DNA from: a virus
Strand: one strand, 5' to 3'
Virus record (IMG/VR): IMGVR_UViG_3300034375_003784
Location: 1 to 34,893 of that record
Length of the DNA: 34,893 nt
Below are positions 6,557 to 29,835 of this stretch, one piece after another; position 1 is the stretch's first letter, and each line of letters starts with the position of its first letter. The notes under the pieces are model-generated. The model did no database searches and had not been told where the DNA came from. It worked only from the letters and a program-made list of their open reading frames with translations. The position numbers and the translations under genes are program-made.

Positions 6557-6564
6557 TATATTTG
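6557..6564 (+). promoter_or_regulatory. Putative early promoter (TATATTTG)
   Basis: Exact match to the Bacteroidetes -7 consensus TAnnTTTG, with a TTTG at 6538-6541 about 15 bp upstream as a possible -33 element. It follows the terminator and precedes the run of small genes starting at 6587. Confidence 0.65.
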
Positions 6565-11615: not shown

Positions 11616-11623
11616 TATATTTG
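11616..11623 (+). promoter_or_regulatory. Promoter TATATTTG for the downstream middle operon
   Basis: Exact TAnnTTTG match just after the helicase stop. A leader of about 130 bases with two inverted repeats separates it from the next ATG at 11762, unlike the short leaders elsewhere. Confidence 0.6.
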
Positions 11624-13643: not shown

Positions 13644-14138
13644 ATGGACAAACCAACCGAAGCGATACTAAAAAAATTAAGTAAAGAAGATGCGAGGTGG
13701 CGAAATGTAGCTTTTAATATCTGTAAAGACGAAAGCCTGTGCGACGATCTTGTCCAGGAGATGTACCTCACTATCGCATCCAAGAAGCCTAAACGAGTTA
13801 ATTCAGCGTATGTATATCGTATACTACTAAATAAATTCCTTAACCACATTAAAGAGCAGAAGAACATAAGCATAGAACAGTTCCATTACATCGAATGTAG
13901 AAATAGAATATTTGAGCCTGACGATGGCGAGCAAGCACTTCTCGATAAGTTCGGTTCATTATCCTGGAGGCAGCAGGAACTAATTTTAGAAAGCTACGAT
14001 AAAAGTCTTAGACAAATACAAGATGACTTCCCGATGATAAATTACGGATATGCATACCGACAAATACGTGACGGTATTCAAGAAGTATTAGGAGATAAAA
14101 TTCACAAATACAAAAACACTAGAAACAAAAGAAAATGA
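13644..14138 (+). CDS. RNA polymerase sigma-factor-like protein (ECF type)
   Basis: 164 residues, the size of a small ECF sigma factor. Residues 18-72 resemble region 2: RWRNVAFNICKDESLCDDLV, QEMYLTI, then NSAYVYRILLNKFLNHIK. Residues 105-150 resemble region 4: SLSWRQQELILESYDKSLRQ, then IQDDF and YRQIRDGIQEVLG. It lies just before the packaging and structural genes, so it is a good candidate for the factor that reads the four repeated late promoter elements. A host-derived or degenerate sigma with a non-promoter role cannot be excluded. Coupled by ATGA to the next gene. Confidence 0.68.
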   Translation: MDKPTEAILKKLSKEDARWRNVAFNICKDESLCDDLVQEMYLTIASKKPKRVNSAYVYRILLNKFLNHIKEQKNISIEQFHYIECRNRIFEPDDGEQALLDKFGSLSWRQQELILESYDKSLRQIQDDFPMINYGYAYRQIRDGIQEVLGDKIHKYKNTRNKRK

Positions 14139-15579: not shown

Positions 15580-15604
15580 ATAACAAAAACAAGTTTATTT
15601 TGTT
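15580..15604 (+). promoter_or_regulatory. Late promoter/operator element, copy A (terminase)
   Basis: ATAACAAAAA-N9-TTTGTT, one of four copies with identical spacing. The -7-like box is TTATTTTG (15595-15602), one base off TAnnTTTG. The flanks ATAACAAAA and TTTTGTTA form an imperfect dyad. It lies in the 117-bp gap before the terminase small subunit gene. Confidence 0.7.
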
Positions 15605-15643
15605 AATATATTAGAATTAATTAATTAATACAAAATTAATCCT

Positions 15644-15934
15644 TTGGATAAGCGTAAGAATAACGGAGGGCATTCTACAAAAGGCAAAGCTGGGCGTAAA
15701 CCTAAAGACGAAGAAAGACGTATCAGGGATATAACAAGCCCGTACACAAGCGATGCGATAAAAACAGTCGTTTCAATACTAACAGACATAGAAGCGAAGT
15801 CAAGCGATAGACTAGCAGCAGCTAAACTATTACTATCATACGCATACGGAAACCCTACACAAACAGTAGACCAAAATACAAACCTAAATATAAATGACTT
15901 CGACATTTCCAAAATCTACGATCCCGAAGCATAA
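15644..15934 (+). CDS. Terminase small subunit-like protein
   Basis: 96 residues from a TTG at 15644; no in-frame ATG is available upstream. The start (MDKRKNNGGHSTKGKAGRKP) is the basic, Gly/Lys-rich N-terminus seen before the helix-turn-helix of many small terminases, and DRLAAAKLLLSYAYGNPTQT (around residues 55-74) resembles the conserved A-x-x-L-L-x-Y-x-x-G-x-P region. It should recognise phage DNA for packaging. The gene overlaps the large subunit by 41 bp. Confidence 0.7.
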   Translation: MDKRKNNGGHSTKGKAGRKPKDEERRIRDITSPYTSDAIKTVVSILTDIEAKSSDRLAAAKLLLSYAYGNPTQTVDQNTNLNINDFDISKIYDPEA

Positions 15935-17123
15935 AAAGGTTTGGCATAGATTAAACAAACCAACAAGATACTTCATAGTAACAGGAGGGCGTGGTTCTGG
16001 TAAGTCATTCGAGGTAGGACGCTTCGCATCTATCTTATCATTCAAAGCAAACCAAAAAATACTATTCACACGTCAGACAATGACCTCTGCACACTTGTCT
16101 ATCATACCAGAGTTCCAAGAGAAAATAGAACTGCTAGGAATAGAGGATGCGTTCGATGTAAACAGAAACGAAATAATAAATAAAGTATCTAAGTCACAGA
16201 TAATATTCAAAGGGCTTAAAACCTCATCAGGTGACCAGACAGCAAACTTAAAATCGTTGCAAGGTATCAACACCTGGATACTAGACGAAGCAGAGGAGCT
16301 ACTAGACGAATCAGTATTTGATAAGATAAACCTATCTATCAGACAAAAAGGCGTACCTAATCGAATCATATTAATACTAAACCCTGCGACAAAAGAACAT
16401 TGGATTTACAAACGATTCTTTGAGCGTAAAGGTGTAGAGGCAGGCTTTAATGGTGTGAAAGGCGATACGACATACATACACACAACGTACCTAGATAACA
16501 TCGAGAACCTAGACGAAACGTTCTTAAACGAAGTATCACGAATTAAAGCAGACAACCCTGTTAAGTACAAACATATTATCGAGGGTTCGTGGATAGACAA
16601 GGCAGAGGGTGTGGTGTTTAGTAACTGGAAGTTTGGTAAGTTTAACCCTGACGGTTTACAAGTTTCCTACGGGCAAGATTTCGGGTTCTCGATAGATCCT
16701 ACCACTTTGATAAGTGTAGCGATAGATAAGAAGAAAAAGAAAATCTATGTTAAAGAACATTTGTATAAGCCAAAACTATCAACAGCACAGATAGGGTATA
16801 TTAATCTCGATGTATGCGGTAAGAGTTTAATCGTTGCTGATAGCGCAGAGCCACGCCTAATAGATGAACTCTATCGAATGGGCTGTAACATTGTAGGAGC
16901 GGAGAAAGGACAAGGTAGTATATCGCTAGGTATATCGTTGTTGTTAGACTACGAAATAATAGTAGACGAGGGTAGCACGAACATAGCTAAAGAATTAAAC
17001 AATTATATCTACGCAGACAAAGGTAGTAAGCTATTTGTCGATGCGTATAACCATACGATTGACCCTTTACGATACGTGGTTATGTATCACTTAGGCAAAT
17101 CGACAGGAATAGAGATACGCTAA
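15894..17123 (+). CDS. Terminase large subunit (PBSX/Terminase_3 type)
   Basis: 409 residues, full length. Walker A GGRGSGKS (31-38), Walker B with catalytic glutamate WILDEAEE (128-135) and the coupling motif near LNPAT (162-166) form the packaging ATPase. The C-terminal RNase H-like nuclease has its acidic residues at Asp262 (GQDFGF), Asp316 (IVADSAEP) and Asp390 (NHTIDPLRY). It packages and cuts phage DNA at the portal. The type resembles PBSX-family enzymes; whether packaging is cos or headful is not decided here. Confidence 0.93.
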   Translation: MTSTFPKSTIPKHKKVWHRLNKPTRYFIVTGGRGSGKSFEVGRFASILSFKANQKILFTRQTMTSAHLSIIPEFQEKIELLGIEDAFDVNRNEIINKVSKSQIIFKGLKTSSGDQTANLKSLQGINTWILDEAEELLDESVFDKINLSIRQKGVPNRIILILNPATKEHWIYKRFFERKGVEAGFNGVKGDTTYIHTTYLDNIENLDETFLNEVSRIKADNPVKYKHIIEGSWIDKAEGVVFSNWKFGKFNPDGLQVSYGQDFGFSIDPTTLISVAIDKKKKKIYVKEHLYKPKLSTAQIGYINLDVCGKSLIVADSAEPRLIDELYRMGCNIVGAEKGQGSISLGISLLLDYEIIVDEGSTNIAKELNNYIYADKGSKLFVDAYNHTIDPLRYVVMYHLGKSTGIEIR

Positions 17124-17148
17124 ATAACAAAAATCAAATAAATTTGTT
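17124..17148 (+). promoter_or_regulatory. Late promoter/operator element, copy B (tail module)
   Basis: ATAACAAAAA-N9-TTTGTT starting right behind the terminase stop. Its -7 box TAAATTTG (17139-17146) is an exact TAnnTTTG match, and the ATG at 17157 is eleven bases downstream of its G, leaving almost no leader. Confidence 0.75.
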
Positions 17149-17156
17149 TATATTAT

Positions 17157-17786
17157 ATGAAGATAGTACTTCCAGAAAACGTAAGTGAAATCACTTTAGG
17201 AATGTTCCAACGGTTTATGAAGCTGATTGAACGAACCGACGAACTAAGTGTAGATGCTTTTAATAAAAGAAAGGTAGAGATATTCACAGGGCTTCCTAGA
17301 CGGGATATAAAGAATGTATCTCGTAAGGACTTCGATGCGATTGTAGAACAGATAGACACAGCTATGGAAACAGACGTACAGTTTGTACCACGCTTTGATC
17401 TAAACGGTGTAGAGTATGGCTTCTGTCCTAACCTCGATGATATGACAACAGGCGAGTGGGCAGACCTTTCAAAGTTTGGTGAAGATGTAGAGAACTTACA
17501 CCAAGTAATGGCAGTACTATTTAGACCCGTTATAAAGAGTGATGGTTTTAAGAATTACAAGATAGCGAGTTACACAGGAGATGAAGATGCGGAGCTTATG
17601 AAGCAAACGCCACTTAATATCGTAAACGGTGCGTTGTTTTTTTTTGGGAATTTAGCAAAGGAATTACGGCTCAATATCCAGAAATCTACGATGGAGGTAC
17701 TTCTGAAGGCAGACAAGCAAGCGACTTCTTCGATAAGTGGGGATGGTACGCCAGCATTTACAGCCTCGCAGACGGAAACATATTAA
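17157..17786 (+). CDS. Tail assembly chaperone-like protein, unshifted product
   Basis: 209 residues in the zero frame. The first 163 residues look like an ordered domain (VSEITLGMFQRFMKLIERTD, PLNIVNGALFFF). The last 46 residues after a run of nine T look like out-of-frame sequence (low-complexity KADKQATSSISGDGTPAFTA) and leave a 115-bp gap to the next gene. By analogy with lambda gpG, this would be the short product and the frameshifted one the gpGT equivalent. Chaperone identity is inferred from the frameshift and gene context. Confidence 0.65.
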   Translation: MKIVLPENVSEITLGMFQRFMKLIERTDELSVDAFNKRKVEIFTGLPRRDIKNVSRKDFDAIVEQIDTAMETDVQFVPRFDLNGVEYGFCPNLDDMTTGEWADLSKFGEDVENLHQVMAVLFRPVIKSDGFKNYKIASYTGDEDAELMKQTPLNIVNGALFFFGNLAKELRLNIQKSTMEVLLKADKQATSSISGDGTPAFTASQTETY

Positions 17787-17905
17787 AGATAAAAGAAGTG
17801 ACCGAACAGAACATACATTTTACGCACGTATTTTTAGCACACCAATTAGACAAGCAGCGATTGGAAGCAGATTTACGGTCGAATAAAAACGTTACAAGAT
17901 TATGA
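17157..17905 (+). CDS. Tail assembly chaperone-like protein, -1 frameshift product
   Basis: If ribosomes slip back one base on the T run (17637-17645), translation continues 86 codons in the -1 frame to TGA at 17903-17905, giving about 249 residues. The added part looks like real protein (SDFFDKWGWYASIYSLADGN, EVTEQNIHFTHVFLAHQLDK), and its TGA overlaps the next ATG at 17902 as ATGA, the coupling used throughout this genome. The -1 frame has a stop at 17615-17617 and no start of its own there, so it can only be reached by a shift. Bacteroidetes phages, from memory, carry a K-W-G-W-Y...LA domain at this point. Confidence 0.75.
17637..17645 (+). other. Slippery T9 run for a -1 ribosomal frameshift
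   Basis: Zero-frame codons TTT TTT TTT GGG allow both tRNAs to re-pair perfectly after a -1 slip (T TTT TTT). It lies inside the window 17618-17786 where both frames are open. A sequencing error (ten T instead of nine) would give the same fused product constitutively. Confidence 0.7.
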
Positions 17906-18360
17906 ACATATACGCTAAACTACTAGACCAAATTAAAACGATAGCAGAGCAGGACGATTTTATTAGTACTGTTACAAATAGAGGGAGTATAGATTTAGAT
18001 TTAAACAAAGGGAATCTATTTCCTATTGTAGACGTGTTTGTAAGTGGCGGTAGCTTTCCTAGTGGCGGTGTTATTCGTTTGTCTATAGAGCTAGTATGTG
18101 TAGATTTACGAGATCACAACAACGAGGTAGTAACGGATAAGTTTCGTGACCAGGATAACGAGATAGACAACCTCAACGAAACGCTAATGGTTTTAAATCG
18201 TATTTGGAAAAAGCTATACAAAGACTTAGAGGGTAACAATATCACAGCGAGTATCGACCCTACACTTGAGCCGATAATCGGTGAGGGTAAAAATATTTAT
18301 GATGGTTGGTTGCTTTCATTCGATGTTGATATTCCTAATGTAAATCTATCACTATGTTAG
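17902..18360 (+). CDS. Tail module protein, possible tail terminator/completion protein
   Basis: 152 residues. The conserved-looking core DFISTVTNRGSIDLDLNKGN is followed by LFPIVDVFVSGGSF and a helical RDQDNEIDNLNETLMVLNRI. Length and position beside a gp10-like gene suit a tail terminator or head-tail completion protein, but the family match is not certain. The start is coupled by ATGA to the frameshifted reading frame, which itself supports that frame. Confidence 0.55.
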   Translation: MNIYAKLLDQIKTIAEQDDFISTVTNRGSIDLDLNKGNLFPIVDVFVSGGSFPSGGVIRLSIELVCVDLRDHNNEVVTDKFRDQDNEIDNLNETLMVLNRIWKKLYKDLEGNNITASIDPTLEPIIGEGKNIYDGWLLSFDVDIPNVNLSLC

Positions 18361-18884
18361 AAGTAGAGAAAACACTTAACAAGTTTGGAACTAACGTAAA
18401 AAAGGATGCTAAGAAAAATCTAAAATCTAAGGGTGCGTTATACAAGTCAATAGATTATAATGTAAAAGTTAATAGAGCAAAGCCTAATGTACCACCTAGC
18501 TTTGAGTTTGATTTCGTGTGGGAAGATTACGGTGATTACATCGACAAAGGTGTAGCTGGTGTAGGAGGTACTAAAGCAGACGGTAGTAGATGGAAGAAAA
18601 AGAAAGTAGTAGGTAGCAAATATAAATACAAAGATAAGCAACCACCTAGAATAGCTTTTAACGGTTGGACGATTCGTAGAGGTATAGCACCGAGAAGTAG
18701 CGGAGGGCAGTTTCAAAAGAGAACAGGACTATTACACGCAATAGCGAAGTCTGTATATCACACAGGGTTAGAAACTACTCACTTCTTTACAAAGCCTTTT
18801 AACAAGTATTTTAAAACGCTACCCGATGAAGTGCTGAAAGCTTATGGAGATGACTTAGATATATTTTTAAAGAAAGCATTATGA
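18354..18884 (+). CDS. HK97-gp10-like tail/head-tail joining protein (candidate)
   Basis: 176 residues, basic N-terminal helix (NKFGTNVKKDAKKNLKSKGA) followed by LYKSIDYNVKV and a polar, glycine-rich body ending in a helix. The pattern of an N-terminal helix leading to a K-S-I-x-Y strand resembles HK97 gp10-type tail components. Overlaps the genes on both sides (7 and 4 bp). Confidence limited. Confidence 0.5.
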   Translation: MLEVEKTLNKFGTNVKKDAKKNLKSKGALYKSIDYNVKVNRAKPNVPPSFEFDFVWEDYGDYIDKGVAGVGGTKADGSRWKKKKVVGSKYKYKDKQPPRIAFNGWTIRRGIAPRSSGGQFQKRTGLLHAIAKSVYHTGLETTHFFTKPFNKYFKTLPDEVLKAYGDDLDIFLKKAL

Positions 18885-19948
18885 TTAAAACACTATCGCC
18901 ATATTACTACGAAACGCCTTTTGTATCGGTAGGTTCTACACTTACCTGTACGAGTTACACGCTTAACCTTTATATCTGGACAGGTGATGAAGCGAGTATA
19001 CCAGGCACACCACAGTACACTATCACAAAAACAAATCCAACGGGTGCGACGGGAAGCGATTACGTAAATATTTCAAGAATACTAGCAGATTACATCGACT
19101 TCACACCACAAGACACAACGACTTCAGCCTCTATAAATGCTGTCAATCAATATTGGGTACGTACAGAAGTAGTCTATACAGGTAGCGGAGGTGTAGAAGC
19201 TGCACAATATGGAGCTAATCAGCTATTTAATAGGGCGTATACGTATGGCGATAAAGGAGGCTCTGTAACGACCTTTGTTAATAACACATTATTACAAGGT
19301 AGTGAGTTCAAAGCAGATCGTACAAGCGTTTTTTGTGTGCCTATTTTGATAGTAAAAGATACAGGTTCACAATTAGCTACTATAAAATCATATCCAAATA
19401 ACGAAATAAACCAAACGATAGGGCTACCAACAACAAACAATAGCGCAGCTTTAGTCCAGGTTCTATGGGTTAAAGTAAGTGAAGCGACAACAGACACTTA
19501 TATAGAGGTTGTATTCGATGGTGTTACTACTACTTTGTTAATCGAGGACGAACTAAAATACACGCCTTTAGATATTTGCTTCCAAAATAAAGACGGTTGC
19601 CAGCAGTTTCTTACATTCAGAAAAGAACGTACTGATGATATAAATATAACATCGAGTGAGTTTGAAAGCGATAGAGCGCAACCAAGCGACGGTAATCACC
19701 AATTCGTAACGTATAACGTTCAAGGGCGTGAGGGCTTTAGGGTTAATAGCGGATGGCAGGACGAAGCGTTAAACGAAACATTCAAGCAGTTACTATTGAG
19801 CGAACGAGTATGGACGTATGACGGTACGGACTTTATACCAGTTACAATAGATACTAAACAGCTAACGTATAAAACGCAGAAGAAAGAGCGTTTAATTAAT
19901 TACGAAATAGGATTTAAGTACGCATATAACGCTATCAATAATATATGA
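18881..19948 (+). CDS. Virion protein of the tail module, unknown detail
   Basis: 355 residues, beta-rich with many Thr and Ser (YTITKTNPTGATGSDYVNIS). The C-terminal part, QLTYKTQKKERLINYEIGFK, is typical of proteins that pair with the large tail protein encoded next. No signal peptide or membrane segment. Coupled by ATGA on both sides. Probably part of the distal tail or tail tip; the exact role is not determined. Confidence 0.6.
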   Translation: MIKTLSPYYYETPFVSVGSTLTCTSYTLNLYIWTGDEASIPGTPQYTITKTNPTGATGSDYVNISRILADYIDFTPQDTTTSASINAVNQYWVRTEVVYTGSGGVEAAQYGANQLFNRAYTYGDKGGSVTTFVNNTLLQGSEFKADRTSVFCVPILIVKDTGSQLATIKSYPNNEINQTIGLPTTNNSAALVQVLWVKVSEATTDTYIEVVFDGVTTTLLIEDELKYTPLDICFQNKDGCQQFLTFRKERTDDINITSSEFESDRAQPSDGNHQFVTYNVQGREGFRVNSGWQDEALNETFKQLLLSERVWTYDGTDFIPVTIDTKQLTYKTQKKERLINYEIGFKYAYNAINNI

Positions 19949-22341
19949 TAAGCACACTATACATCGACGGAGTAAAGCTAGACCAATTCAAGGACGAGAA
20001 TATTTCAGTAATTAGCTCGGTGCTAGACATTAAAGATATCACTAAGAACACTACCGATTACACACGTTCTTTTACCGTTCCTGCTTCTAGGTTAAACAAC
20101 CAAACGTTTAGCCACTACTACGATTTTAATATAGATGACGGCTTCGATGCACGTAAGAAGATAGACGGTGAGATACATTTAGACGGCATCGTTTTTAAGA
20201 CGGGCAAATGGAGGTTGCAAAAAGTAAACCTAAAAAAAGGAAAGCCCGAAAGCTATACTATTAATTTCTTCGGGTTGTTAGTAGGATTAAAAGATAAGGC
20301 ACGAGATTTAGAACTTAGCGATTTAAACCTAGCTGCATACGATCACGACTTTAGTAGTACATTTGTTTATAATGGACTAACTACTGGTTTGTTTTCTGAA
20401 AACATTATATATCCTTGTTTACCAAAAAAAAGATGGATATTAGATACAGGCGTAAATACACAAACAGAAACTACCTCAAATATTGCTTTAGACGGTGGTG
20501 ATGCTACGGGTATTGTATGGAACGATCTTAGACCATCATTAAAACTTATACGTATATTAGAAGCGATTGAAGCTAAACTAGGTGTAACATTCTCACGGCA
20601 CTTTTTTGATACTTCAGAGTTTGCTAATCTTTATATGTGGCTCAACCCTGATAAAGAAAACACAATAAAAGGAAACTCACAGCAAGTTGATTGGGATGGC
20701 GGACAACTACCTACCTATCCTGGTGATACTTGGATGAACTGGACTACCAATGTAGGTACTTACGAACGTGATGGAGATTACTTTTATCTTCAATGTGTTA
20801 TAACACCAGAGGCAGGATTTGAAACGGTAGACTACACGATAAGATGTATAAGCAACGGAGAAACTTTTTCAGAATTAAATATGCCGAGCGGGAGTGCGGG
20901 TACGCTTGTAGCTGATTTTCAGAGTTCAGCACAAGGTACTTACTTAGTTAGCTTTGAGGTTTCTTCACAAGTAGACTTTCAATACACATCACTACTAGCA
21001 CAGACAAGATTTACAAACCCAACAACAGCAACAGCAGTAGATGTAAGTACGGGAACAGCGCAGACATTAGATGGTGATTTTGTTATAAGTAAAAACATTC
21101 CCAAGCTAAAGATAATCGACTTTTTAAAAGGTATCTTCCAGATGTTTAAGCTAGTGATTATACCGACAGCGGAAGATACGTATTACGTTAATACATTAGA
21201 TGGTTATTATAGTGAGGGTTCTACAATAGATATAACGAAGTACATTAACTGGGAAACTTTCGACGTAGAGCGAGGCGATATACTAAATGAGATTAGTTTT
21301 AAATTCCAAGAACCAACAACTATTGCTAACCTACAATATGAGGAACTAAATAAAAGAGGGTACGGAGATTTAATACAACAACTATACACCGATTCAACAG
21401 AAACAGAACTACTAGATGGTGATAGCTTTACGGTAGAATTACCTTTTGAGCAGATACAATACGAAAGACTTATAGATGTACAAGACGGTGTAGTATCAGA
21501 AATGCAATACGGAGCTGTAATAGATGAAGATGAAGCACCAGCAAACCCTAAAGCACACATACACTACGCAAAACGAATAGGGCAGGGTATAAAAGCAATA
21601 GGGTTTATAAATGATTTAGGAGCGCAAATTCAAATACCAGGATCGACAGGTGTATGGATTCCTTTACACGGTAACGATTTTACTTATCCAATATACAGCA
21701 CGACATTTAACACAAACCCTAATGAGTGGGACGGTGTTTTTATGGAGAAGAACCTATACTCTAATCATTACGCTAGTTATATTTCAGATATCTTTAACAT
21801 TAAAAAAAGGACGTTTAAGTATAAGGCAGTATTACCACTTAGAATAGCTACTAAATTAGAATTAAACGACGTTCTATTTATAAAGAACAACTACTACCGT
21901 ATAGATAAATGGAGCTATAATTTACTAAATGGCGAAACAGATTTTGAGCTTATTAATTCTTTTGAAACTACTATAAATCCTTTCACTACTTCAGCGACAA
22001 ATATAACAACAAATTACGAAGCGAAAGACGAACTAATTTACATAACTAATTTAAACGGTTCTTCATCAACGATTGTAGTTAATGATTTAGGATTTGGTAC
22101 AGCGTGGGTAGTTCCTGTAACTTACGAAACGTCAGCGACAGACCCTAACGTACTTACTTTTGAGATAGCAGCTAATACACTAGAAACAGATAGAACAGCA
22201 AGCGTTACGGTTACACAAGCGGTTACGGGTGCGACTATTACAATATTTATATACCAAACATTACAAACGTATTATCCATCGTTTGACTTTACAGACAGCA
22301 GAAACAGTATGAACATAGCTACAATAGCATTAAGAAATTAA
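19945..22341 (+). CDS. Large distal tail/tail-tip protein with C-terminal BACON/Ig-like domain
   Basis: 798 residues. The N-terminal 120 residues (DITKNTTDYTRSFTVPASRL, KGKPESYTINFFGL) resemble distal tail and tail-hub proteins of Bacteroidetes phages. The middle (DFVISKNIPKLKIIDFLKGI) contains a hub-like helical element. The last 110 residues form an Ig/BACON-like beta-sandwich with the typical ending R-x-A-S-V-T-V-T-Q ... I-F-I-Y-Q-T. Such domains are thought to bind glycans or mucin-like surfaces. It should form the tail tip that contacts the host. Largest gene of the window. Confidence 0.65.
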   Translation: MISTLYIDGVKLDQFKDENISVISSVLDIKDITKNTTDYTRSFTVPASRLNNQTFSHYYDFNIDDGFDARKKIDGEIHLDGIVFKTGKWRLQKVNLKKGKPESYTINFFGLLVGLKDKARDLELSDLNLAAYDHDFSSTFVYNGLTTGLFSENIIYPCLPKKRWILDTGVNTQTETTSNIALDGGDATGIVWNDLRPSLKLIRILEAIEAKLGVTFSRHFFDTSEFANLYMWLNPDKENTIKGNSQQVDWDGGQLPTYPGDTWMNWTTNVGTYERDGDYFYLQCVITPEAGFETVDYTIRCISNGETFSELNMPSGSAGTLVADFQSSAQGTYLVSFEVSSQVDFQYTSLLAQTRFTNPTTATAVDVSTGTAQTLDGDFVISKNIPKLKIIDFLKGIFQMFKLVIIPTAEDTYYVNTLDGYYSEGSTIDITKYINWETFDVERGDILNEISFKFQEPTTIANLQYEELNKRGYGDLIQQLYTDSTETELLDGDSFTVELPFEQIQYERLIDVQDGVVSEMQYGAVIDEDEAPANPKAHIHYAKRIGQGIKAIGFINDLGAQIQIPGSTGVWIPLHGNDFTYPIYSTTFNTNPNEWDGVFMEKNLYSNHYASYISDIFNIKKRTFKYKAVLPLRIATKLELNDVLFIKNNYYRIDKWSYNLLNGETDFELINSFETTINPFTTSATNITTNYEAKDELIYITNLNGSSSTIVVNDLGFGTAWVVPVTYETSATDPNVLTFEIAANTLETDRTASVTVTQAVTGATITIFIYQTLQTYYPSFDFTDSRNSMNIATIALRN

Positions 22342-22344
22342 ATT

Positions 22345-23202
22345 ATGAGTGAATTAACAATAAAAGACGGAGCAGCAGCCACGAAGTATCTAGGAACTAT
22401 GGGAGTAGGAACGACTGGAGATCCATACTTTAGCATACCAGCGGACTTCTATACAGAAGTAGCGAAAGGAAACGTACCTGGGCATACTTTGGTACATAAA
22501 TTCGGACACAATTCAGCAACACCAACAACACTAACTCCTATTTGCTCAATAGGGGATTACATTACCTTACAGCCTGCAAGTGCTACTACACTTAGAATAA
22601 AAGCAGGAGGTGACGCTAACGATACAGCGGCAGGTAGTGGTGCAAGAGAAGTAACGTTACAAGGGTTAGATGAAACAGGCACTTTAGTATCAGAATCCAT
22701 CGCAACAGCAGGAGCTTCAGCGAGTGCGGTAACTACCACGACTTTTATTAGATTGTTTAGAATTAAGGTTACTGCATCTGGGACTTATGCGACTTCAACA
22801 ACAGCTTCACATACAGCAGCTATAACCATAGAAAACGGAGCAGGAGGTACTGATTGGGGAACTATTGATTTAAACGGCTTTGCATTATCGCAATCGACAA
22901 TAGGGGCTTATAGTGTACCGCTTGGAAAAACTGCGTACTTAATTTCTTATGATATTAACGCAGAAACCACTAAGATAGTAGATGCTGTATTTTTTCAAAG
23001 ACAAAGTATTTTAGATGCCGCAGCACCTTACGAGGCTATGCGAATTGTATTTGAAATCGTAGGGCTTACAGATACCCGAAGTAAAGTATTAAATGCACCG
23101 ATAGCTTTTCCAGCATTAACAGATATAGGATTTATGGCAAAGGTATCAACGGGTACAGCAAACGTTTCAGTTAATTTTGATATACTTTTAGTCGATGATT
23201 AG
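22345..23202 (+). CDS. Virion structural protein (tail or baseplate component)
   Basis: 285 residues, Ala/Thr/Ser-rich and beta-rich, low in Lys. Segments GAREVTLQGLDETGTLVSES and TTTTFIRLFRIKVTASGTY match a type of structural protein I know from marine phages, usually annotated only as virion protein. It lies between the large tail-tip gene and the tape measure. Whether it is a receptor-binding or internal tail protein is unclear. Confidence 0.6.
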   Translation: MSELTIKDGAAATKYLGTMGVGTTGDPYFSIPADFYTEVAKGNVPGHTLVHKFGHNSATPTTLTPICSIGDYITLQPASATTLRIKAGGDANDTAAGSGAREVTLQGLDETGTLVSESIATAGASASAVTTTTFIRLFRIKVTASGTYATSTTASHTAAITIENGAGGTDWGTIDLNGFALSQSTIGAYSVPLGKTAYLISYDINAETTKIVDAVFFQRQSILDAAAPYEAMRIVFEIVGLTDTRSKVLNAPIAFPALTDIGFMAKVSTGTANVSVNFDILLVDD

Positions 23203-23347
23203 CGAGATTATAAAAACATTACAGAGCGATGATTTCTACGGTGCTGGTGAGTATGTAGAAATAGCAAAGGGTAAGAACGAACTCGTTACCGATTGGCGTG
23301 GGTTCAAACGTAAAACAAAGCGAGTATGGCTATCCAGAAAAACATAA
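23195..23347 (+). CDS. 50-residue basic protein overlapping the tape measure start
   Basis: ATG at 23195 overlaps the end of the previous gene, and the frame runs past the tape measure ATG (23326) to TAA at 23345-23347. Sequence contains DFYGAGEYVEIAKGKNELV and a basic end (FKRKTKRVWLSRKT). It fills an otherwise empty 120-bp gap, which supports translation. It might be a small tail assembly factor. Confidence 0.5.
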   Translation: MISEIIKTLQSDDFYGAGEYVEIAKGKNELVTDWRGFKRKTKRVWLSRKT

Positions 23348-24783
23348 AGATAAATGTAGATACTGACGAAGCGGTTAGGGATTTAAACAAATTAGAGGGT
23401 AGTTTAAAAGAAGTAAACCAGGAGGCAGGAAACACCAAGACAGGCATTAAAGATGTCGGTGAGAACGGTGGGGCTATTGCTGTGCTAGATAGTTTAACAG
23501 GTGGGCTTGCCACTAGGTTTAGAGATGCATACGAGGCTTCTAAGCTGTTCAACTTCTCACTAAAGGGAACGAGAGCAGCTTTGATAGCCACTGGTATTGG
23601 TTTATTTGTCGTAGCTTTAGGTACAATCGTAGCTTACTGGAGTGAGATTGACGACTATATGCGTGGAACGCAAAAAAGACTAAACGAACGGTTAAATAGT
23701 TTAGATAGAGTTCAAACAGCTTTAGACGGTCAGCTTAAAATAAATTCACAGCTATTAGAGTTAGCAAGATTAAGAGGTGAAAGTACAGATGATTTAGTAG
23801 CTAAAGAAAAAGAGTTATTAACAGAAAAGAAAAGAATAGCTGTACTAGCACTTCAAACACTAAACTCACAACTAGAAATAGAAAAAAGTAAAATAAGAGA
23901 AGTTACTTTACTTGAAAAAGGTGTAATAGGATTAAGAGCTGCTATTTTAGGACAGCAAACAGTAGGAGATAGTTTTGTAAAAGAACTTGGATTAGATAAA
24001 ATTTCAGAATTACAAGCTAAGATTATTGAAGCGACTGGAATTATAAACGACATAGATATAAAATTTGAGAAAGATAAAAAAGCAAGAGAAGATGAATCTA
24101 AAGGCGGTGGAGGAGAAACTAGAACAAAAGAATTTCAAACAGGTGTAGGTAACGGTCTAACATCAGAGGATAATATAATACTAGGCTCTAAAGAATTACT
24201 AAACGAAAAAGTTTCAGAACTTAATCAAGAGGGTGTAGATGATTTCTTAATTAAAGAAATACAGAAACAAGAAGCGGCAAGAAAAACAGCAGAAGAAGAA
24301 AAGTTATTAAGAGAACAAGTAAAAGACTTCTCAATAGGCTTAGCTTCTCAAACGATAGGTATAATAGGTTCACTAGCAAAAGAGGGAAGCGATTTAGCGA
24401 AAGGTGTAGCAATAGCACAGGCGATAATAGATACTTATAAAGGAGCAGTAGCAGCATACGCAGCAGGTTCTAGTGTAGGTGGCCCAGCAGGTTTAGTATT
24501 AGGGCCAGTCGCAGCAGGTTTAGCAGTAGCAGCAGGTTTGGCAAACATAGCGAAGATAGCAGCTACTAAGCCAATAGAAACAGCAGGAGGCGCACGAGGA
24601 GCTAGTGGAGGAGGCGCACCGCCAAGTCCGTCTTTTAATCTTGTGCAAGGAACGGGAACTAATCAGATTAGCCAGTCTATTAATAATCAAAATCAAAATC
24701 CTCCGAAAGCATACATTGTAAGCAAGGACGTATCGTCAGGGTTAGAACTTGAAAGAAATATTGAGCAGAATAGTGCTTTATAA
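23326..24783 (+). CDS. Tape measure protein
   Basis: 485 residues. The N-terminal part is helical and coiled (EAVRDLNKLEGSLKEVNQEA). A hydrophobic segment around residues 82-104 (ALIATGIGLFVVALGTIVAY), long heptad-like helices in the middle and a small-residue hydrophobic segment (AGLVLGPVAAGLAVAAGLAN) near residue 395 follow; all are hallmarks of tape measure proteins. At about 0.15 nm per residue (known for lambda-like phages) the length would predict a short siphovirus tail of roughly 70 nm. It ends the tail module. Confidence 0.82.
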   Translation: MAIQKNIKINVDTDEAVRDLNKLEGSLKEVNQEAGNTKTGIKDVGENGGAIAVLDSLTGGLATRFRDAYEASKLFNFSLKGTRAALIATGIGLFVVALGTIVAYWSEIDDYMRGTQKRLNERLNSLDRVQTALDGQLKINSQLLELARLRGESTDDLVAKEKELLTEKKRIAVLALQTLNSQLEIEKSKIREVTLLEKGVIGLRAAILGQQTVGDSFVKELGLDKISELQAKIIEATGIINDIDIKFEKDKKAREDESKGGGGETRTKEFQTGVGNGLTSEDNIILGSKELLNEKVSELNQEGVDDFLIKEIQKQEAARKTAEEEKLLREQVKDFSIGLASQTIGIIGSLAKEGSDLAKGVAIAQAIIDTYKGAVAAYAAGSSVGGPAGLVLGPVAAGLAVAAGLANIAKIAATKPIETAGGARGASGGGAPPSPSFNLVQGTGTNQISQSINNQNQNPPKAYIVSKDVSSGLELERNIEQNSAL

Positions 24784-24827
24784 AAAAACCCTTGTATCTT
24801 TACGGACTTAATCCTGATGCAAGGGTT
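24781..24827 (-). terminator. Hairpin terminator for the antisense HNH gene
   Basis: Arms AACCCTTGTATC (24787-24798) and GATGCAAGGGTT (24816-24827) pair over 12 bp with one G-T pair around a 17-base loop. On the minus strand the stem is followed by seven T (24788-24782), so it terminates transcription coming from the HNH gene; on the plus strand there is no T-tract. Confidence 0.72.
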
Positions 24828-24907
24828 CTACTAACTAATCAATCTAACTATGAAAAAACACAATTCAATTTCCTTTTCAAATATACAAATAAATATCAAT
24901 TAAACAA

Positions 24908-25855
24908 CTATATTCTTAATCTTATTTGTACCTCTGGTATTGTAGCGGCCTTAGATAAATTATCAGAAGCCCACAACGGTTGTAAGTTTGTATAGTGGCA
25001 TAACTTACGCATTTCTATTTCATTGGTTGCAGACGCTAGTGGTATTATGTGGTCGATGTGCCATTCACCATAGTTATCCCAACTCATACCCTTTGTGAAT
25101 TGTCGCTCTAAATATAGCTTGCACCGTCCGTAATCTATTCCTAGTAGTTTTTCCGAAGTTGAATCTTTTTTATATCCACCTCTTTTAAAAACCTCCCAAT
25201 TTCTATGACTAATGTTACTCCTCATTTTATATAATGGGTCTGTTTTAAGCCTATTCCTTTGCCTTGCATTTATTTTTTCTCTGTTTTTTTTAGCATATTC
25301 TTTTGCGTATTCACTCTTTTTTTCTTTGTTTTTTTTATGGTATTCTGCGTGGTATTTCTTTTGATATTCTTTATGTTTTTTATTATACTCAATTTGATAT
25401 TTTTTTATAGCATCCTTATTTTTATGATAGTAAATTTTATCTTTTTCTCTAATTTTTTCTTTGTTTTTTTGATAGTATTCTTGTACTTTATGTTTATTAT
25501 TTTTATAATAATTTTTAAAGTATTCATATCTTCTTTCTTTGTTTTTTTCTTTATTCTTATGATAGTATTCCTTTAGTTGTTTTAGAATTTTATCCCTATT
25601 AGCAGCTCTATATTCTTTTGCATATTTATTCTTTTTATCTCTATTTTTTTTACGGTATTCTTTACCTTTACATCTAATCGTCTGTATGTTTTTTTGATAG
25701 TATTCTTTTCTTTTATTAGGGTATTTTTCTTTGTATATTTTATATGCTATACTAGCACACTTTTTACAATATGGCTTTAATCCATCATTAGATTTTTTGT
25801 CTTTACTAAAACCCTCCACGCTTTTAACATCTCCACACTTAGTACATTTTTTCAT
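24908..25855 (-). CDS. Free-standing HNH endonuclease with zinc motif and KNKE-type repeats
   Basis: 315 residues from the start MKKCTKCGDV at 25855; a start at 25900 would add 15 residues and is not preferred. An N-terminal zinc finger (C4, C7, C30, C33) is followed by about 170 residues of Tyr/Lys/Glu/Asn-rich repeats of 11-14 residues (EYYHKNKEKNKERRYEYFKN, YYQKNKEKIREKDKIYYHKN). The C-terminal HNH core has WHIDHIIPLAS near 265-275, a Cys and TNLQPLWASDN. Proteins of this type are often homing endonucleases. It is the only clear minus-strand gene and sits between two structural modules. Confidence 0.82.
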   Translation of the reverse strand: MKKCTKCGDVKSVEGFSKDKKSNDGLKPYCKKCASIAYKIYKEKYPNKRKEYYQKNIQTIRCKGKEYRKKNRDKKNKYAKEYRAANRDKILKQLKEYYHKNKEKNKERRYEYFKNYYKNNKHKVQEYYQKNKEKIREKDKIYYHKNKDAIKKYQIEYNKKHKEYQKKYHAEYHKKNKEKKSEYAKEYAKKNREKINARQRNRLKTDPLYKMRSNISHRNWEVFKRGGYKKDSTSEKLLGIDYGRCKLYLERQFTKGMSWDNYGEWHIDHIIPLASATNEIEMRKLCHYTNLQPLWASDNLSKAATIPEVQIRLRI

Positions 25856-25929
25856 AGTTGCAATATACAAAAATTTATAAAAAAAATAACATCTACTCAC
25901 TATTTATAATAAATATAAATTACAAAAGT

Positions 25930-25954
25930 ATAACAAAAATCAATTTTATTTGTT
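25930..25954 (+). promoter_or_regulatory. Late promoter/operator element, copy C (head module)
   Basis: ATAACAAAAA-N9-TTTGTT with the same spacing as the other copies; the -7-like box is TTTATTTG (25945-25952). The arms ATAACAAAAA and TATTTGTTAT form a dyad with 9 of 10 pairs. The ATG at 25976 is 24 bases after the G. Confidence 0.72.
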
Positions 25955-25975
25955 ATTATAATAAGAATTATTTAT

Positions 25976-27058
25976 ATGATAACATACGAAGCCGTATTTA
26001 ATGGTGCTAAAAACGATGGAGTTTTTGGTATCTCGTTAGTGGCTGACCCAGCGATGGAGGGTTTATTTGTTGCACTTAAAAAGCAAGAGCCTATTCAGCT
26101 AAAAGAAATTGACAAAGAACAGCGTATTTTAATGGGTCTAATTTTAGAACCTAAAAAGCCTGTATACCGTAATCAAAACGGGGAAGAATTTAACATAGTT
26201 TTCAGCGAAGATGTTATAAAAGAATTATCACATAATTTCTTTAAAGCTGGATTTCAAAAGAACAGTACAATAGAACACGACACACCTATAGATGGTGTTA
26301 CGTTTGTAGAATCTTGGATCGTAGAAGATACGAAAATAGATAAGTCTGCGAACTTCGGTTTTAGTTATCCTAAAGGCTCGTGGATAGCTTCTATGAAAGT
26401 AGACAGCGACGAGGTATGGAATGACTATGTAAAGACTGGCAAGGTTCAAGGGTTCTCGGTAGATGCTATGATAGACCTAAAAGAAGTAAATTTAAAAACA
26501 GAAATAAAAATGGAAAGTAACTTAGTGAAAGACTTTATTACGGACGTAAAAACCGCATTAGGTTTAGAGAAGCCCGAAGTAGAGGTTAAATTAGGAAGCG
26601 TTTTGTCAGGAGAAAATACATTGTATTTTGATGGTGAGATGTTACAAATCGATTCTGCTGTTTGGCTACTCGGTGAAGATGAAACAAAAGTACCTTTACC
26701 TGTTGGTGAATATCCGCTTGACGAAAAAGAGCAGATACTTGTCGTATCAGAAGAGGGTGTAGTAGGTGAAATTAAGGAAGCGGTTGTGGAAGAAGCACCA
26801 GCAGAATTAGCAGAGCCAGAAGCACCTAGCGAGGGCGTGTTAAATCAAATTAAATCACTTCTGATAAAATATTCAGAAGAACAATCAAAGAAGATTGAAG
26901 ATTTAAGAGCAGAGTTTTCAGAAGTTAAAAAAGAAAACGAAACTTTAAAAGTAGAATTAGCAGAGGTATCGAAAGAGCCAGCAGCAAAAAAGATTGTAGC
27001 TACACCAGTGCAGCTTACAGCAAAAGGAAGAATATTAGATAAACTTAGAAACAACTAA
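25976..27058 (+). CDS. Prohead serine protease (XkdF-like) fused to a scaffold-like C-terminus
   Basis: 360 residues. The N-terminal half matches XkdF-type phage proteases: GISLVADPAMEGLFVAL (18-34), then EHD with His101 and QGFSVDA with Ser161 as the likely catalytic pair. From about residue 260 the sequence becomes acidic, Glu/Lys-rich and coiled (SEEQSKKIEDLRAEFSEVKK), as in scaffolding proteins. The gene is therefore a protease-scaffold fusion that would direct capsid assembly and then cleave itself. It is the first gene of the head module. Confidence 0.75.
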   Translation: MITYEAVFNGAKNDGVFGISLVADPAMEGLFVALKKQEPIQLKEIDKEQRILMGLILEPKKPVYRNQNGEEFNIVFSEDVIKELSHNFFKAGFQKNSTIEHDTPIDGVTFVESWIVEDTKIDKSANFGFSYPKGSWIASMKVDSDEVWNDYVKTGKVQGFSVDAMIDLKEVNLKTEIKMESNLVKDFITDVKTALGLEKPEVEVKLGSVLSGENTLYFDGEMLQIDSAVWLLGEDETKVPLPVGEYPLDEKEQILVVSEEGVVGEIKEAVVEEAPAELAEPEAPSEGVLNQIKSLLIKYSEEQSKKIEDLRAEFSEVKKENETLKVELAEVSKEPAAKKIVATPVQLTAKGRILDKLRNN

Positions 27059-27062
27059 AAAA

Positions 27063-27467
27063 ATGAGTACAAACATTCAATACAGAGATTTAGACGCTGC
27101 GGTAGACTATAAAGCCCTATCAGCAGACACAACCCTAACAGCGAGCGAAAGTGGAAAGGTTCTTCTTTTAGATGCAATAGGTGAAGCGATTACTTTACCA
27201 AGTCCAACAGCAGGACTTAACTACAAGTTTTTATGTACGGTTACAACAGTGACAACAGACTGGACTATCGTATCAGCAACAGACGTTATTTACGGAAGCG
27301 CACAAGTAGCAGGTGCAGTAGTAGCAGCGAGCGCAGAGAATACTATCACGTTAGTAGTAGCGAAGTTCTTACCTGGCGACTGGGTAACGTTAGAAAGTGA
27401 CGGAAGTTCGTGGTTTGTAGAGGGTTCAGTAGTAACAACAGCAGGTTGCACATTCACAGCACCTTAA
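27063..27467 (+). CDS. Putative capsid decoration/head protein
   Basis: 134 residues, Ala/Thr/Val-rich and beta-rich (GKVLLLDAIGEAITLPSPTA). Small proteins of this type between protease and capsid genes are usually decoration or head-stabilising proteins; I recall similar sequences in marine phages. No enzyme motif. The identification is from composition and position. Confidence 0.55.
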   Translation: MSTNIQYRDLDAAVDYKALSADTTLTASESGKVLLLDAIGEAITLPSPTAGLNYKFLCTVTTVTTDWTIVSATDVIYGSAQVAGAVVAASAENTITLVVAKFLPGDWVTLESDGSSWFVEGSVVTTAGCTFTAP

Positions 27468-27494
27468 TAATAATATAAAAAAAACAATAAAAAA

Positions 27495-28421
27495 ATGGCA
27501 ACAACAAACACAGTATCTAGTAATTATGCAGGTAAGGTCGCTGGTGGTATTATAGGAGCAGCTTTTAAAGAAGCCGATACTTTACGATTAGGACTTTTAA
27601 CGGTAGCAGAAAATGTAAACTATAAATATAATCTACGTAAAATCGCTTATGCTGATGGTACTACGGATTACGCTTGTGGATTTACTCCAGGTGGAACTTT
27701 CACAGGAAGTGAAAAAGTTATTACTCCTTCAAAAGTAATGAACTCTTTTCAAATCTGTAAAGAAGATTTCAGACAAACTTGGTCAGAAGATGGTATGGGA
27801 GCAAGTGCTTCAAATCCTAATATGGCTAGTGATATTCTAGAAGCAATCACAACAGAGGTATTAGCTTCACAGGCTGCAAAACTCGATTCTGATATATGGG
27901 CTGGTCTCGCAGCCACCGATGGATCTTTTTCGGGGCTAATTGAGCAATTCGGAAACGACTCATCAATTATAAAAGATGGTAACGGTGTAACTGGGCCTGG
28001 ACATAGTGTAACAGAATCAACAGTAGAGGCAGATTTAAAACTCGCACTAGCTGCCGTTCCGATTGCACTTAGAAGAAAAGATTTAGTGGTAGCTGTTTCA
28101 AGTGATGTATTCCAAGCGTATAACTTCTATTTAATTTCCAAAGGGATTGCGTGGAATGGTACGACAGATGACAAACGGTCGAAATTTGGACGTTACACTT
28201 TAACAGAAGTAAACTCGCTGCCAGATGATACGATTGTAATTTATGAGAAATCAAATATTGTATTTGCGACAGGACTTCAAGGAGATCACAATGAGTTGAA
28301 AGTAGTTGATGAAGATGAAATTTCTTTATTGACTGGACTCGTGAGAGGAAAAATTGTTTACAACGCAGGTGTTGGGTACTATAACAGCGCAGAGATTGTA
28401 TGGTTATTGCTAACCACGTAG
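27495..28421 (+). CDS. Major capsid protein
   Basis: 308 residues, acceptable for an HK97-fold capsid protein without a long delta domain. It directly follows the protease-scaffold and decoration genes and precedes the tail tube gene. Segments ICKEDFRQTWSEDGMGAS, LEAITTEVLASQAAKLDSDI and ALAAVPIALRRKDLVVAVSS fit the E-loop/spine helix/P-domain order of the fold. Strong A-rich leader (AAAACAATAAAAAAATGG) suggests high expression. A hairpin follows the gene. Confidence 0.8.
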   Translation: MATTNTVSSNYAGKVAGGIIGAAFKEADTLRLGLLTVAENVNYKYNLRKIAYADGTTDYACGFTPGGTFTGSEKVITPSKVMNSFQICKEDFRQTWSEDGMGASASNPNMASDILEAITTEVLASQAAKLDSDIWAGLAATDGSFSGLIEQFGNDSSIIKDGNGVTGPGHSVTESTVEADLKLALAAVPIALRRKDLVVAVSSDVFQAYNFYLISKGIAWNGTTDDKRSKFGRYTLTEVNSLPDDTIVIYEKSNIVFATGLQGDHNELKVVDEDEISLLTGLVRGKIVYNAGVGYYNSAEIVWLLLTT

Positions 28422-28422
28422 A

Positions 28423-28465
28423 TAGTTTTAGGAAAGGGAGGTTTAACCGCCTCCCACTTAAACTA
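28423..28465 (+). terminator. Stem-loop between capsid and tail tube genes
   Basis: Inner stem GGGAGG (28436-28441) / CCTCCC (28450-28455) and outer stem TAGTTT (28423-28428) / AAACTA (28460-28465). There is no T-tract, so it is more likely a partial terminator or a 3' mRNA stabiliser behind the highly expressed capsid gene than a full stop. Confidence 0.55.
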
Positions 28466-28489
28466 TTATTAACATTTAAAACATAAAAA

Positions 28490-29011
28490 ATGGCGTGTGC
28501 ATTAACAACAGGACGAGCAAAAACAACGTGTAAAGATATACTTGGTGGTAATTCTACCATATATCTTTTCAACGAGCAAGCAGACCCATTTACGGTATCT
28601 GCAACAACGAACGAGGCGACAGCTATAAACGCCTCTATAACGGCTGTGTGGGAATACCCTTTAATGGGTGACACCAACACTTTAGAGCAAAGTATGGTAG
28701 GTGAGAGTGCGAACTATACTAGAGTGAATACTCAAACGCTTTCAGTACAATTACCAAAAATGAGTGTAGCGGATAGTGCGGAGTTTAATATTCTAGCAGC
28801 TAGTTTCGCTATGTGTGTGGTAAAGGACAGAGTAGGAAACTACCACGCTTTAGGAATTACAGACGGTATGGATTGGACGGTAGTAGGAGCGACAGGCGGA
28901 GCGAAAACGGACGCTAATGGTTGGACTATAACAGCAACAGCACAAGAGGCTAAATTAGCACCTATGTTAGATTCTGCGACTGTAACAGCTTTACTAGCTT
29001 TATTACCTTAA
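28490..29011 (+). CDS. Major tail tube protein-like
   Basis: 173 residues, beta-rich with a short helix, typical size for a siphovirus tail tube protein. Segments FNEQADPFTVSATTNEATAI and YTRVNTQTLSVQLPKMSVAD show alternating strands; GNYHALGITDGMDWTVVGAT and GWTITATAQEAKLAPML resemble the C-terminal half of tube proteins of Bacteroidetes phages. It is the last gene before a strong terminator, so it is probably transcribed with the capsid gene. Location among head genes, away from the other tail genes, is unusual. Confidence 0.65.
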   Translation: MACALTTGRAKTTCKDILGGNSTIYLFNEQADPFTVSATTNEATAINASITAVWEYPLMGDTNTLEQSMVGESANYTRVNTQTLSVQLPKMSVADSAEFNILAASFAMCVVKDRVGNYHALGITDGMDWTVVGATGGAKTDANGWTITATAQEAKLAPMLDSATVTALLALLP

Positions 29012-29041
29012 ATATTTGGTTTAGTTTTCATAATTGGGAAG

Positions 29042-29069
29042 AGCCTTTCAGAAATGGAGGGCTTTTTTT
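29042..29069 (+). terminator. Rho-independent terminator after the tail tube gene
   Basis: AGCCTTTC (29042-29049) pairs with GGAGGGCT (29056-29063), including two G-T pairs, around an AGAAAT loop, followed by seven T. It closes the head module transcript. Confidence 0.78.
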
Positions 29070-29176
29070 ATACTCAATAACAACGATATAAAAAGTAGAA
29101 TACTTATCAGTAGAATGATATAGATAGCACCTATTAAGTATTTAATCGTTTTCATACGTGTATACTTTTTACTTTT

Positions 29177-29192
29177 AAATTATACGTATAAG
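29177..29192 (+). repeat. Palindrome TTATACGTATAA in a shared AAATTATACG element
   Basis: TTATACGTATAA (29180-29191) is a perfect palindrome. With its flanks, AAATTATACGTATAAG matches AAATTATACGTTATAAG at 11691-11707 with a single missing T, and AAGTATAAAA follows here and occurs at 11666-11675 there. Confidence 0.55.
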
Positions 29193-29230
29193 TATAAAAG
29201 GTGATGATATACGGAAGTTATGTGTAGTTT

Positions 29231-29300
29231 GTGAATGATATATCATACCTTATCGGGTATAGTTTTAGTGAATGAATGACTTATCATACCCCTTCGGGTA
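29231..29300 (+). repeat. Two copies of a hairpin-forming unit, about 41 bp apart
   Basis: GTGAATGA...TATCATACC...TCGGGTATA occurs twice; TATCATACC starts at 29241 and 29282. Each copy folds: ATACC-N6-GGTAT in the first, and ATACCC-CTTC-GGGTAT in the second. Neither is followed by a T-tract. Confidence 0.6.
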
Positions 29301-29346
29301 TAAACTACTCATAACAACGTATATAAAAAATGCAATATACTGCACT

Positions 29347-29383
29347 AAATACCTGTTTTTCCACGCAAATACCTGTTTTTCCA
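29347..29383 (+). repeat. Tandem 17-bp direct repeat with 20-bp period (iteron-like)
   Basis: AAATACCTGTTTTTCCA is present at 29347-29363 and 29367-29383, exactly 20 bp (two helical turns) apart. The TTTTCCAC end is close to a DnaA box (TTATCCACA). Iteron-like for a replication or regulatory protein. Confidence 0.6.
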
Positions 29384-29490
29384 TAAGTGAGTGTATTTCA
29401 ATGCACTTTTCATATACAAACCGTTAGCAAACATTAAAACGTTCACTAACCACAAATTTAAACTAAATTTCCTTATAAAACAAATAAAAA

Positions 29491-29515
29491 ATAACAAAAA
29501 CACGATATTTTTGTT
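29491..29515 (+). promoter_or_regulatory. Late promoter/operator element, copy D (portal module)
   Basis: ATAACAAAAA-N9-TTTGTT. Here the arms ATAACAAAAA (29491-29500) and TTTTTGTTAT (29508-29517) are a perfect 10-bp inverted repeat with a 7-base centre. The -7 box TATTTTTG (29506-29513) matches TAnnTTTG exactly; ATG follows at 29524. Confidence 0.78.
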
Positions 29516-29523
29516 ATTATAGT

Positions 29524-29835
29524 ATGAAAGTAGTAGCACCAGGAACAGCAACATCTTATTCTTTAGAGCTTATACCTAGATTCTATCCTTGTACTACGGT
29601 GGTAGTATCTTTATACAACGAAGCGGATAGAGAAGTAACGACACCAACGAGTACTTATTCTATCGTTGACGGTATTATGAAAGTAAACTTTACTTATACT
29701 TTTGTAAATAAAGATAGGTATCAGATAAAGATAACAGATACAGCTTCAGACGTTGTGTACCGTGGGATAGTACGTTGCACAGACCAAGAAAGTCAAGATT
29801 ATAAAATAACAAACGGCATATACGTTTATGAATGA
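29524..29835 (+). CDS. Small beta-rich protein preceding the portal
   Basis: 103 residues, apparently one beta-sandwich (TSYSLELIPRFYPCTTVVVS, KVNFTYTFVNKDRYQIKITD, DVVYRGIVRCTDQE). No signal peptide. It is the first gene behind late element D and overlaps the portal gene by 8 bp. Conserved small proteins at this position are known from Bacteroidetes prophages as hypothetical virion proteins; the role is not known. Confidence 0.6.
   Translation: MKVVAPGTATSYSLELIPRFYPCTTVVVSLYNEADREVTTPTSTYSIVDGIMKVNFTYTFVNKDRYQIKITDTASDVVYRGIVRCTDQESQDYKITNGIYVYE

Follow-up and report, generated by a model that had tools for sequence, protein, structure and literature searches.

Comparison with described systems

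Promoters of bacterial extracytoplasmic function (ECF) sigma factors have an AAC motif at −35 and a CGT motif at −10, separated by 16–17 bp; the SigW promoter of Bacillus subtilis, for example, is TGAAAC-N16-CGTA. Among phage factors, T4 gp55 reads only a −10 motif (TATAAATA) and requires both gp33 and the sliding clamp. Here, we describe a tailed phage record from IMG/VR (IMGVR_UViG_3300034375_003784; 34.9 kb), in which a 25-bp element occurs four times, once before each virion module. Throughout, "the window" refers to the whole 34,893-nt stretch, and L0xx and G0xx refer to related uncultivated loci and contigs, of which L089 is identical to the window. The four elements are very probably ECF-type late promoters that are read by an ECF-like sigma factor encoded by the phage itself (13644–14138).

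Phage sigma factors T4 gp55 and SPO1 gp28/gp34 redirect host RNA polymerase to middle and late genes (PMC9429907, PMC2988020), and the factor proposed here resembles them as a small phage sigma for such genes. Unlike the T4 gp55 system, however, the phage has a −35 motif, a sigma4 domain, and an ECF-like −10. It shares with bacterial ECF systems the two-domain sigma2–sigma4 protein, the AAC and CGT boxes, and the 16- to 17-bp spacer, and some relatives of the window literally carry TGAAAC-N16-TGTTA or CGTTT, like SigW-group promoters. It differs from them in that the sigma factor is phage-encoded and would control virion genes, the −10 is often TGTT or ATT, and the start codon is fused to the promoter. 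In Flavobacterium psychrophilum, motif SM6 was assigned to an ECF sigma factor because of its conserved CGT −10 box (PMC9723704), which is the argument made here for the phage element. Housekeeping promoters of Bacteroidetes have TTTG and TAnnTTTG boxes (PMC6847099); such boxes are found in the early region of the phage, whereas the late core is GTT instead.

The nearest cultured relatives of the window are Nonlabens phages P12024S and P12024L (genus Inhavirus), which share its gene order and have a terminase with 64% identity. These phages encode sigma-like proteins gp33/gp35 (gp33 is annotated with Sigma-70 region 2) and carry seven promoter copies of the form AAAAC-N16/17-CGTT-7/8-ATG. They differ from the window in that most spacers are 17 bp long, the −10 has C, and the element is missing upstream of the first tail gene that follows terL. 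Late sigma factors of phages have long been known; we found no description of an ECF-type one with a bipartite, start-codon-fused promoter kept across a lineage, and no open-access paper on ECF-type late promoters in flavobacterial phages (the P12024 genome paper was outside this search).

Four elements precede the virion modules

The sequence ATAACAAAAA-N9-TTTGTT is present on the + strand as four exact 25-mers with equal spacing, at 15580, 17124, 25930, and 29491, just as given in a preliminary description of the window; no fifth exact copy exists within it. Opposite-strand matches at the same four places result from the partial dyad symmetry of the element. Gene calls agree with the earlier placement of one copy upstream of each module, namely terminase, tail, head protease-capsid, and portal.

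15580..15604, + strand: putative late promoter A (terminase), −35 AAC at 15582–15584, −10 TGTT at 15601–15604
15644..15934, + strand: terminase small subunit (terS), first gene of unit A (phrog_2538, E 2.5e-4)
15894..17123, + strand: terminase large subunit (terL; phrog_2, E 2e-49)
17124..17148, + strand: putative late promoter B (tail module), −35 AAC at 17126–17128, −10 TGTT at 17145–17148
17157..17786, + strand: first tail gene and first gene of unit B (phrog_32199), conserved N-terminus MKI-LPENISEITL from this ATG
25930..25954, + strand: putative late promoter C (head protease-capsid), −35 AAC at 25932–25934, −10 TGTT at 25951–25954
25976..27058, + strand: head maturation protease, first gene of unit C (phrog_3017, E 2e-13; phrog_24921, E 5e-66)
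29491..29515, + strand: putative late promoter D (portal module), −35 AAC at 29493–29495, −10 TGTT at 29512–29515
29524..29835, + strand: small pre-portal gene, first gene of unit D; homologues in relatives carry the same element
29828..31501, + strand: portal protein (phrog_33693, E 3e-146)

We took an ECF-type promoter to have AAC in the −35 and a CGT-like −10 that are 15–18 bp apart, with the transcription start about 7–10 nt past the −10. The window copies have these motifs at this spacing, with TGTT rather than CGTT.

The element is conserved among related phages

More than 100 related uncultivated loci were gathered by terminase and portal scans, which were used in place of a viral-contig scan with the single window sigma protein as query that returned only one locus. 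In all relatives, we collected sites matching AAC-N15..18-(C/T)GTT-N5..11-ATG before open reading frames; this pattern identified 120 starts, compared with 59 for the reversed motif. A weight matrix was then built from 37 distinct sites with spacer 16 and leader 8, excluding the window, the identical contig L089, and P12024. When this relatives-only matrix was run over the window, the four copies were the top four sites (30.2, 29.7, 26.0, and 25.1 bits); the next independent site, antisense images of the copies aside, scored 10.8 bits, and 20 Markov simulations peaked at 13.6. A gapped version of the matrix gave four sense matches in the window and 0 and 0 in reversed-sequence controls. Both results place the window copies far above chance. 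A looser pattern (AACAAA-N13-YGTTW with one mismatch) was not clearly above its reversed control in 19 records, being too permissive.

Because the training set fixes AAC and GTT, we also examined 72 gene 17157 homologues that were chosen blind to the motif, a set that lacks the fixed-column bias. The element lies at the fixed start-codon distance upstream of 54 of these 72 (30 of 42 when non-redundant), whereas shuffling the upstream bases of the 72 gave a mean of 0.9 and a maximum of 4. Most of the remaining homologues have recognizable variants, such as AACAAAA...CATTATATAAATATG. Information in these motif-blind upstream regions peaks at AACAAA (−31 to −26), CGTT (−12 to −9), and T at −1, and the core conserved among the relatives is AAC-N16/17-(C/T)GTT.

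A phage gene encodes a probable ECF-type sigma factor

The reader of the promoter shared by the virion genes is most likely a small sigma factor encoded by the phage.

13644..14138, + strand: ECF-type sigma factor, proposed reader, 164 aa, sigma2 and sigma4 (phrog_31712, a family of unknown function)

The window protein matches Pfam Sigma70_r2 (PF04542) at 25.9 bits (cut-off 24). Of the 41 records with at least 3 kb of sequence upstream of terL, 39 contain an orthologue in that flank by iterative profile search, as do 23 records with a shorter upstream flank. The two records lacking it are the temperate phage RAP44 and L032, which ends early and in whose sibling the gene lies 4.3 kb upstream. 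The sigma70-ECF model TIGR02937 is matched at E ≤ 0.01 (best 6e-11) by each of the 31 aligned proteins, 26 of which also match an ECF family of Bacteroidota. By sequence profile, the best full-length relative in the PDB is B. subtilis SigW, aligned over both domains (E 6e-6). The protein has the architecture of an ECF sigma factor, with sigma4 following a short linker, neither sigma1.1 nor sigma3, and a length of 164 aa. No anti-sigma gene was recognized beside it.

The predicted structure consists of two helical domains (predicted local distance difference test score 84; predicted template modelling score 0.43). In a fold search, ECF sigma factors of initiation complexes ranked on top with full-length alignments (Z 9–11) led by SigH, SigL, and SigE; the full-length root-mean-square deviation is large because the two domains are set at different angles. 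Aligned alone, sigma2 matched SigR sigma2 with Z 9.7 and a deviation of 2.1 Å over 70 residues, and the C-terminal helices matched region 4 of SigL and SigR with Z 7.2 and 6.5, respectively. Synteny with terL, the matches to the sigma70-ECF model, and the fold together make this protein, one of two that the preliminary description put forward for binding tests, the best candidate for the reader. The other was a DnaA-like protein at 13117; since its homologues were found in only seven of the fetched loci, we do not consider it part of the late switch. The protein (13117–13641) has a DnaA C-terminal DNA-binding domain (PF08299, E 1e-7).

Promoter copies resemble each other within genomes

With the gapped matrix, ten large contigs and P12024S/L had 3–8 sense sites each. 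Across the 13 genomes and large contigs, the recurring locations were upstream of terS, the first tail gene, the protease, and the pre-portal gene, and in most cases the ATG was exactly 8 nt past GTT. The core varied by genome: TGTT in the window, G001, and G011; CGTT in G002, G003, and G005; ATT in all three copies of G007; TGAAAC-TGTT in G008; and mostly spacer 17 in P12024. Copies of one genome had a core identity of 0.89, against 0.74 for orthologous copies (permutation p 2e-4), whereas spacer identity was 0.40 and 0.38, respectively (permutation p 0.09). Such likeness of the cores within genomes would be expected if each genome had a single trans-acting reader shared by its promoters. No sites above 16 bits were found in the sigma-less Bacteroidota phages RAP44, 11b, and BS-TP2, although three phages is a small number.

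In one clade, an additional promoter of the same kind lies before a small MKKE gene upstream of terS, with a leader of about 10–20 nt (L035 9231, L039 782, L041 6295, L044 1558, and L046 363).

Predicted start sites and leaderless transcripts

In 54 of 91 distinct sites, an ATG lies exactly 9 nt after GTT, and in about half of the copies transcription appears to start at the start codon of the gene itself. The base before this fixed-place ATG is T in 50 of the 54 sites, compared with 42% at other open reading frame starts. Of the 37 sites without a fixed ATG, 28 have A and 4 have G at the same position (+9); this bias is moderate evidence because the neighboring positions are also A-rich. Copies A and C have a T|A step there, at 15612/15613 and 25962/25963. 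For gene 17157, the start codon is real, because conservation of the encoded N-termini begins there. These positions predict the following starts, about 9 nt after GTT, and would make the late mRNAs of two window modules leaderless.

15613, + strand: predicted start of promoter A, at an A, with a leader of ~31 nt to the likely TTG start at 15644
17157, + strand: predicted start of promoter B, at the A of ATG, leaderless
25963, + strand: predicted start of promoter C, at an A, with a 13-nt leader to the ATG at 25976
29524, + strand: predicted start of promoter D, at the A of ATG, leaderless

Proposed regulation

Based on these observations, the sigma factor would be made early from host-type promoters and would then join the host core RNA polymerase. 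Its sigma4 domain would read the −35 AAC(AAA) and its sigma2 domain the −10 (C/T)GTT(A/T), 16 bp apart, and this single factor would turn on the packaging, tail, head, and portal units jointly. The earlier idea of late promoters, one per virion module, that are read by a phage-specific factor is supported.

More broadly, we think it probable, with some reserve, that a lineage of marine flavobacterial phages has an ECF-type sigma factor, start-codon-fused promoters, leaderless first late genes, and promoter copies that drift together with the sigma. If so, the first gene of most late operons would be translated leaderless in hosts where such mRNAs are rare, and the predicted transcripts pose the question of how Bacteroidota ribosomes, which do not use Shine-Dalgarno sequences, handle them during infection. 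The family phrog_31712, so far without a function, would gain a likely one, and the promoter code could be used to predict late operons of uncultivated flavobacterial phages. The many diverged sigma–promoter pairs, one in each genome, would also be material for studying how sigma2 and sigma4 choose their DNA.

Alternative explanations

Several observations weigh against an ECF-type promoter read by the phage sigma. The dyad of the window copies is more symmetric than an ECF model needs, and the matrix scores overstate the AAC and (C/T)GTT columns by which the training sites were chosen. The window sigma scores 16.8 bits against the curated TIGR02937 cut-off of 42.9, and for this reason its assignment to the ECF family draws on the set of homologues and on the fold; its sigma4 domain is nearly without Pfam matches, with region 4 matched in 2 of 31 proteins. 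A partial Mantel test that related promoter distance to sigma distance while controlling for terL distance gave r 0.28, no stronger than the flanking-DNA control (0.34), so that it is the within-genome similarity that speaks for co-evolution. Leaderless mRNAs are also rare in hosts of the group: they make up 5.5% in F. psychrophilum (PMC9723704), and 87% of F. johnsoniae leaders are longer than 10 nt (PMC6847099).

The elements could instead be host sigma-A promoters with a TAnnTTTG −7 box, in which an A-box that binds a phage activator stands in for the missing −33 motif. The host sigma-A box is TAHHTTTG, and transcription starts 4–5 nt after the G (PMC6847099), and the preliminary description correctly noted TAnnTTTG in copies B and D and TTnnTTTG in copies A and C. 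TAnnTTTG is so frequent in the window (28 times on the + strand and 36 on the − strand), however, that its presence in two copies weighs little. Among the 42 non-redundant orthologous sites, TTTG occupies the −7-box position in 2 and TAnnTTTG in 1, whereas GTT is present in 25; the box that sigma-A promoters would conserve is not kept in the relatives, and the proposed overlap with it is not supported. Position −12 is C in 20 of these sites and T in 7, so the T that gives the window copies their TTTG, and that also completes the palindrome, is a minority variant. We regard sigma-A promoters as highly improbable here. A palindromic operator for a phage dimer (a repressor, an activator, or a DnaA-like protein) near ordinary promoters would account for the dyad, which in copy D is indeed the perfect 10-bp inverted repeat described earlier and is nearly perfect in copies C and A. 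Across relatives, however, the dyad is neither conserved nor compensated. The consensus, AACAAA...TCGTT, does not form a palindrome: complementary bases at A(−28)/C(−12) occur in 5 of 42 sites, compared with 7.5 by permutation. Complementarity over all dyad pairs is 257 versus 235, an excess due mostly to the AAC/GTT columns, in which sites without the element count on both sides. The apparent dyad arises because AAC and GTT complement each other and the flanks are A-rich and T-rich. In the window, moreover, the left arm is invariant and the right arm varies, and the DnaA-like protein has the narrow distribution given above. The fixed distance to an ATG or T|A step suits a start site, leaving an operator very unlikely. 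The relatives thus support a phage-specific late promoter and neither the dyad nor the −7-box reading.

If the promoters are of ECF type, they might be read by an ECF sigma factor of the host, and the phage sigma-like protein would then have another role. Flavobacterial hosts own several ECF sigma factors, including at least one with a CGT-type −10 motif (PMC9723704); yet the phage sigma gene is kept near the terminase throughout the group, and promoter variants such as the ATT for GTT in all three copies of G007 track the phage genome, which makes a host reader very unlikely. An element acting at the RNA level, as a hairpin before the start codon that affects translation or termination, would fit the two copies that have an inverted repeat immediately upstream of ATG. 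The arms change without compensation, however, no ATG stands at the fixed place in two copies of the window and in 37 sites overall, and the fixed 16-bp spacing suits recognition of DNA; we give this idea almost no credence.

Host-type boxes in the early region

Host-type TAnnTTTG boxes head early gene blocks of the window, at 6557, 10067, and 11616. The preliminary description had listed 10067 as a weaker copy of the late element, but the best score of the late matrix in that region is −2.9 bits, and the box there is a host-type TACATTTG. The ATG that follows (10080) would lie no more than 1–2 nt from the start expected for sigma-A. The box at 11616 is plausibly the sigma-A promoter of an operon that would include the sigma gene.

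11616..11623, + strand: host-type TATATTTG box, a sequence match with a putative sigma-A promoter role

Other observations

Short palindromes, such as AATCAATTAATTGATT or ATTAATTAATTAAT, immediately precede the terS start codon in many relatives, among them L011, L019, L021, L025, L051, and others; they lie in the interval separating the late promoter from terS, which in the window is 15605–15643, and are possibly a terminase-binding (pac/cos) or autoregulatory site. Upstream of promoter D, a long intergenic region contains two 37-nt direct repeats with TATCATACC..TCGGGTATA (29225–29302). Between the tape measure and protease genes, the − strand carries a 330-aa antisense gene (24908–25900; 25% guanine plus cytosine) with a 45-nt repeated coding unit (KEYxxKNKEK) and, by our own reading, an HNH-like C-terminus. 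Its sole Pfam match, to Stc1, is sub-threshold, and it is likely a mobile homing-type gene.

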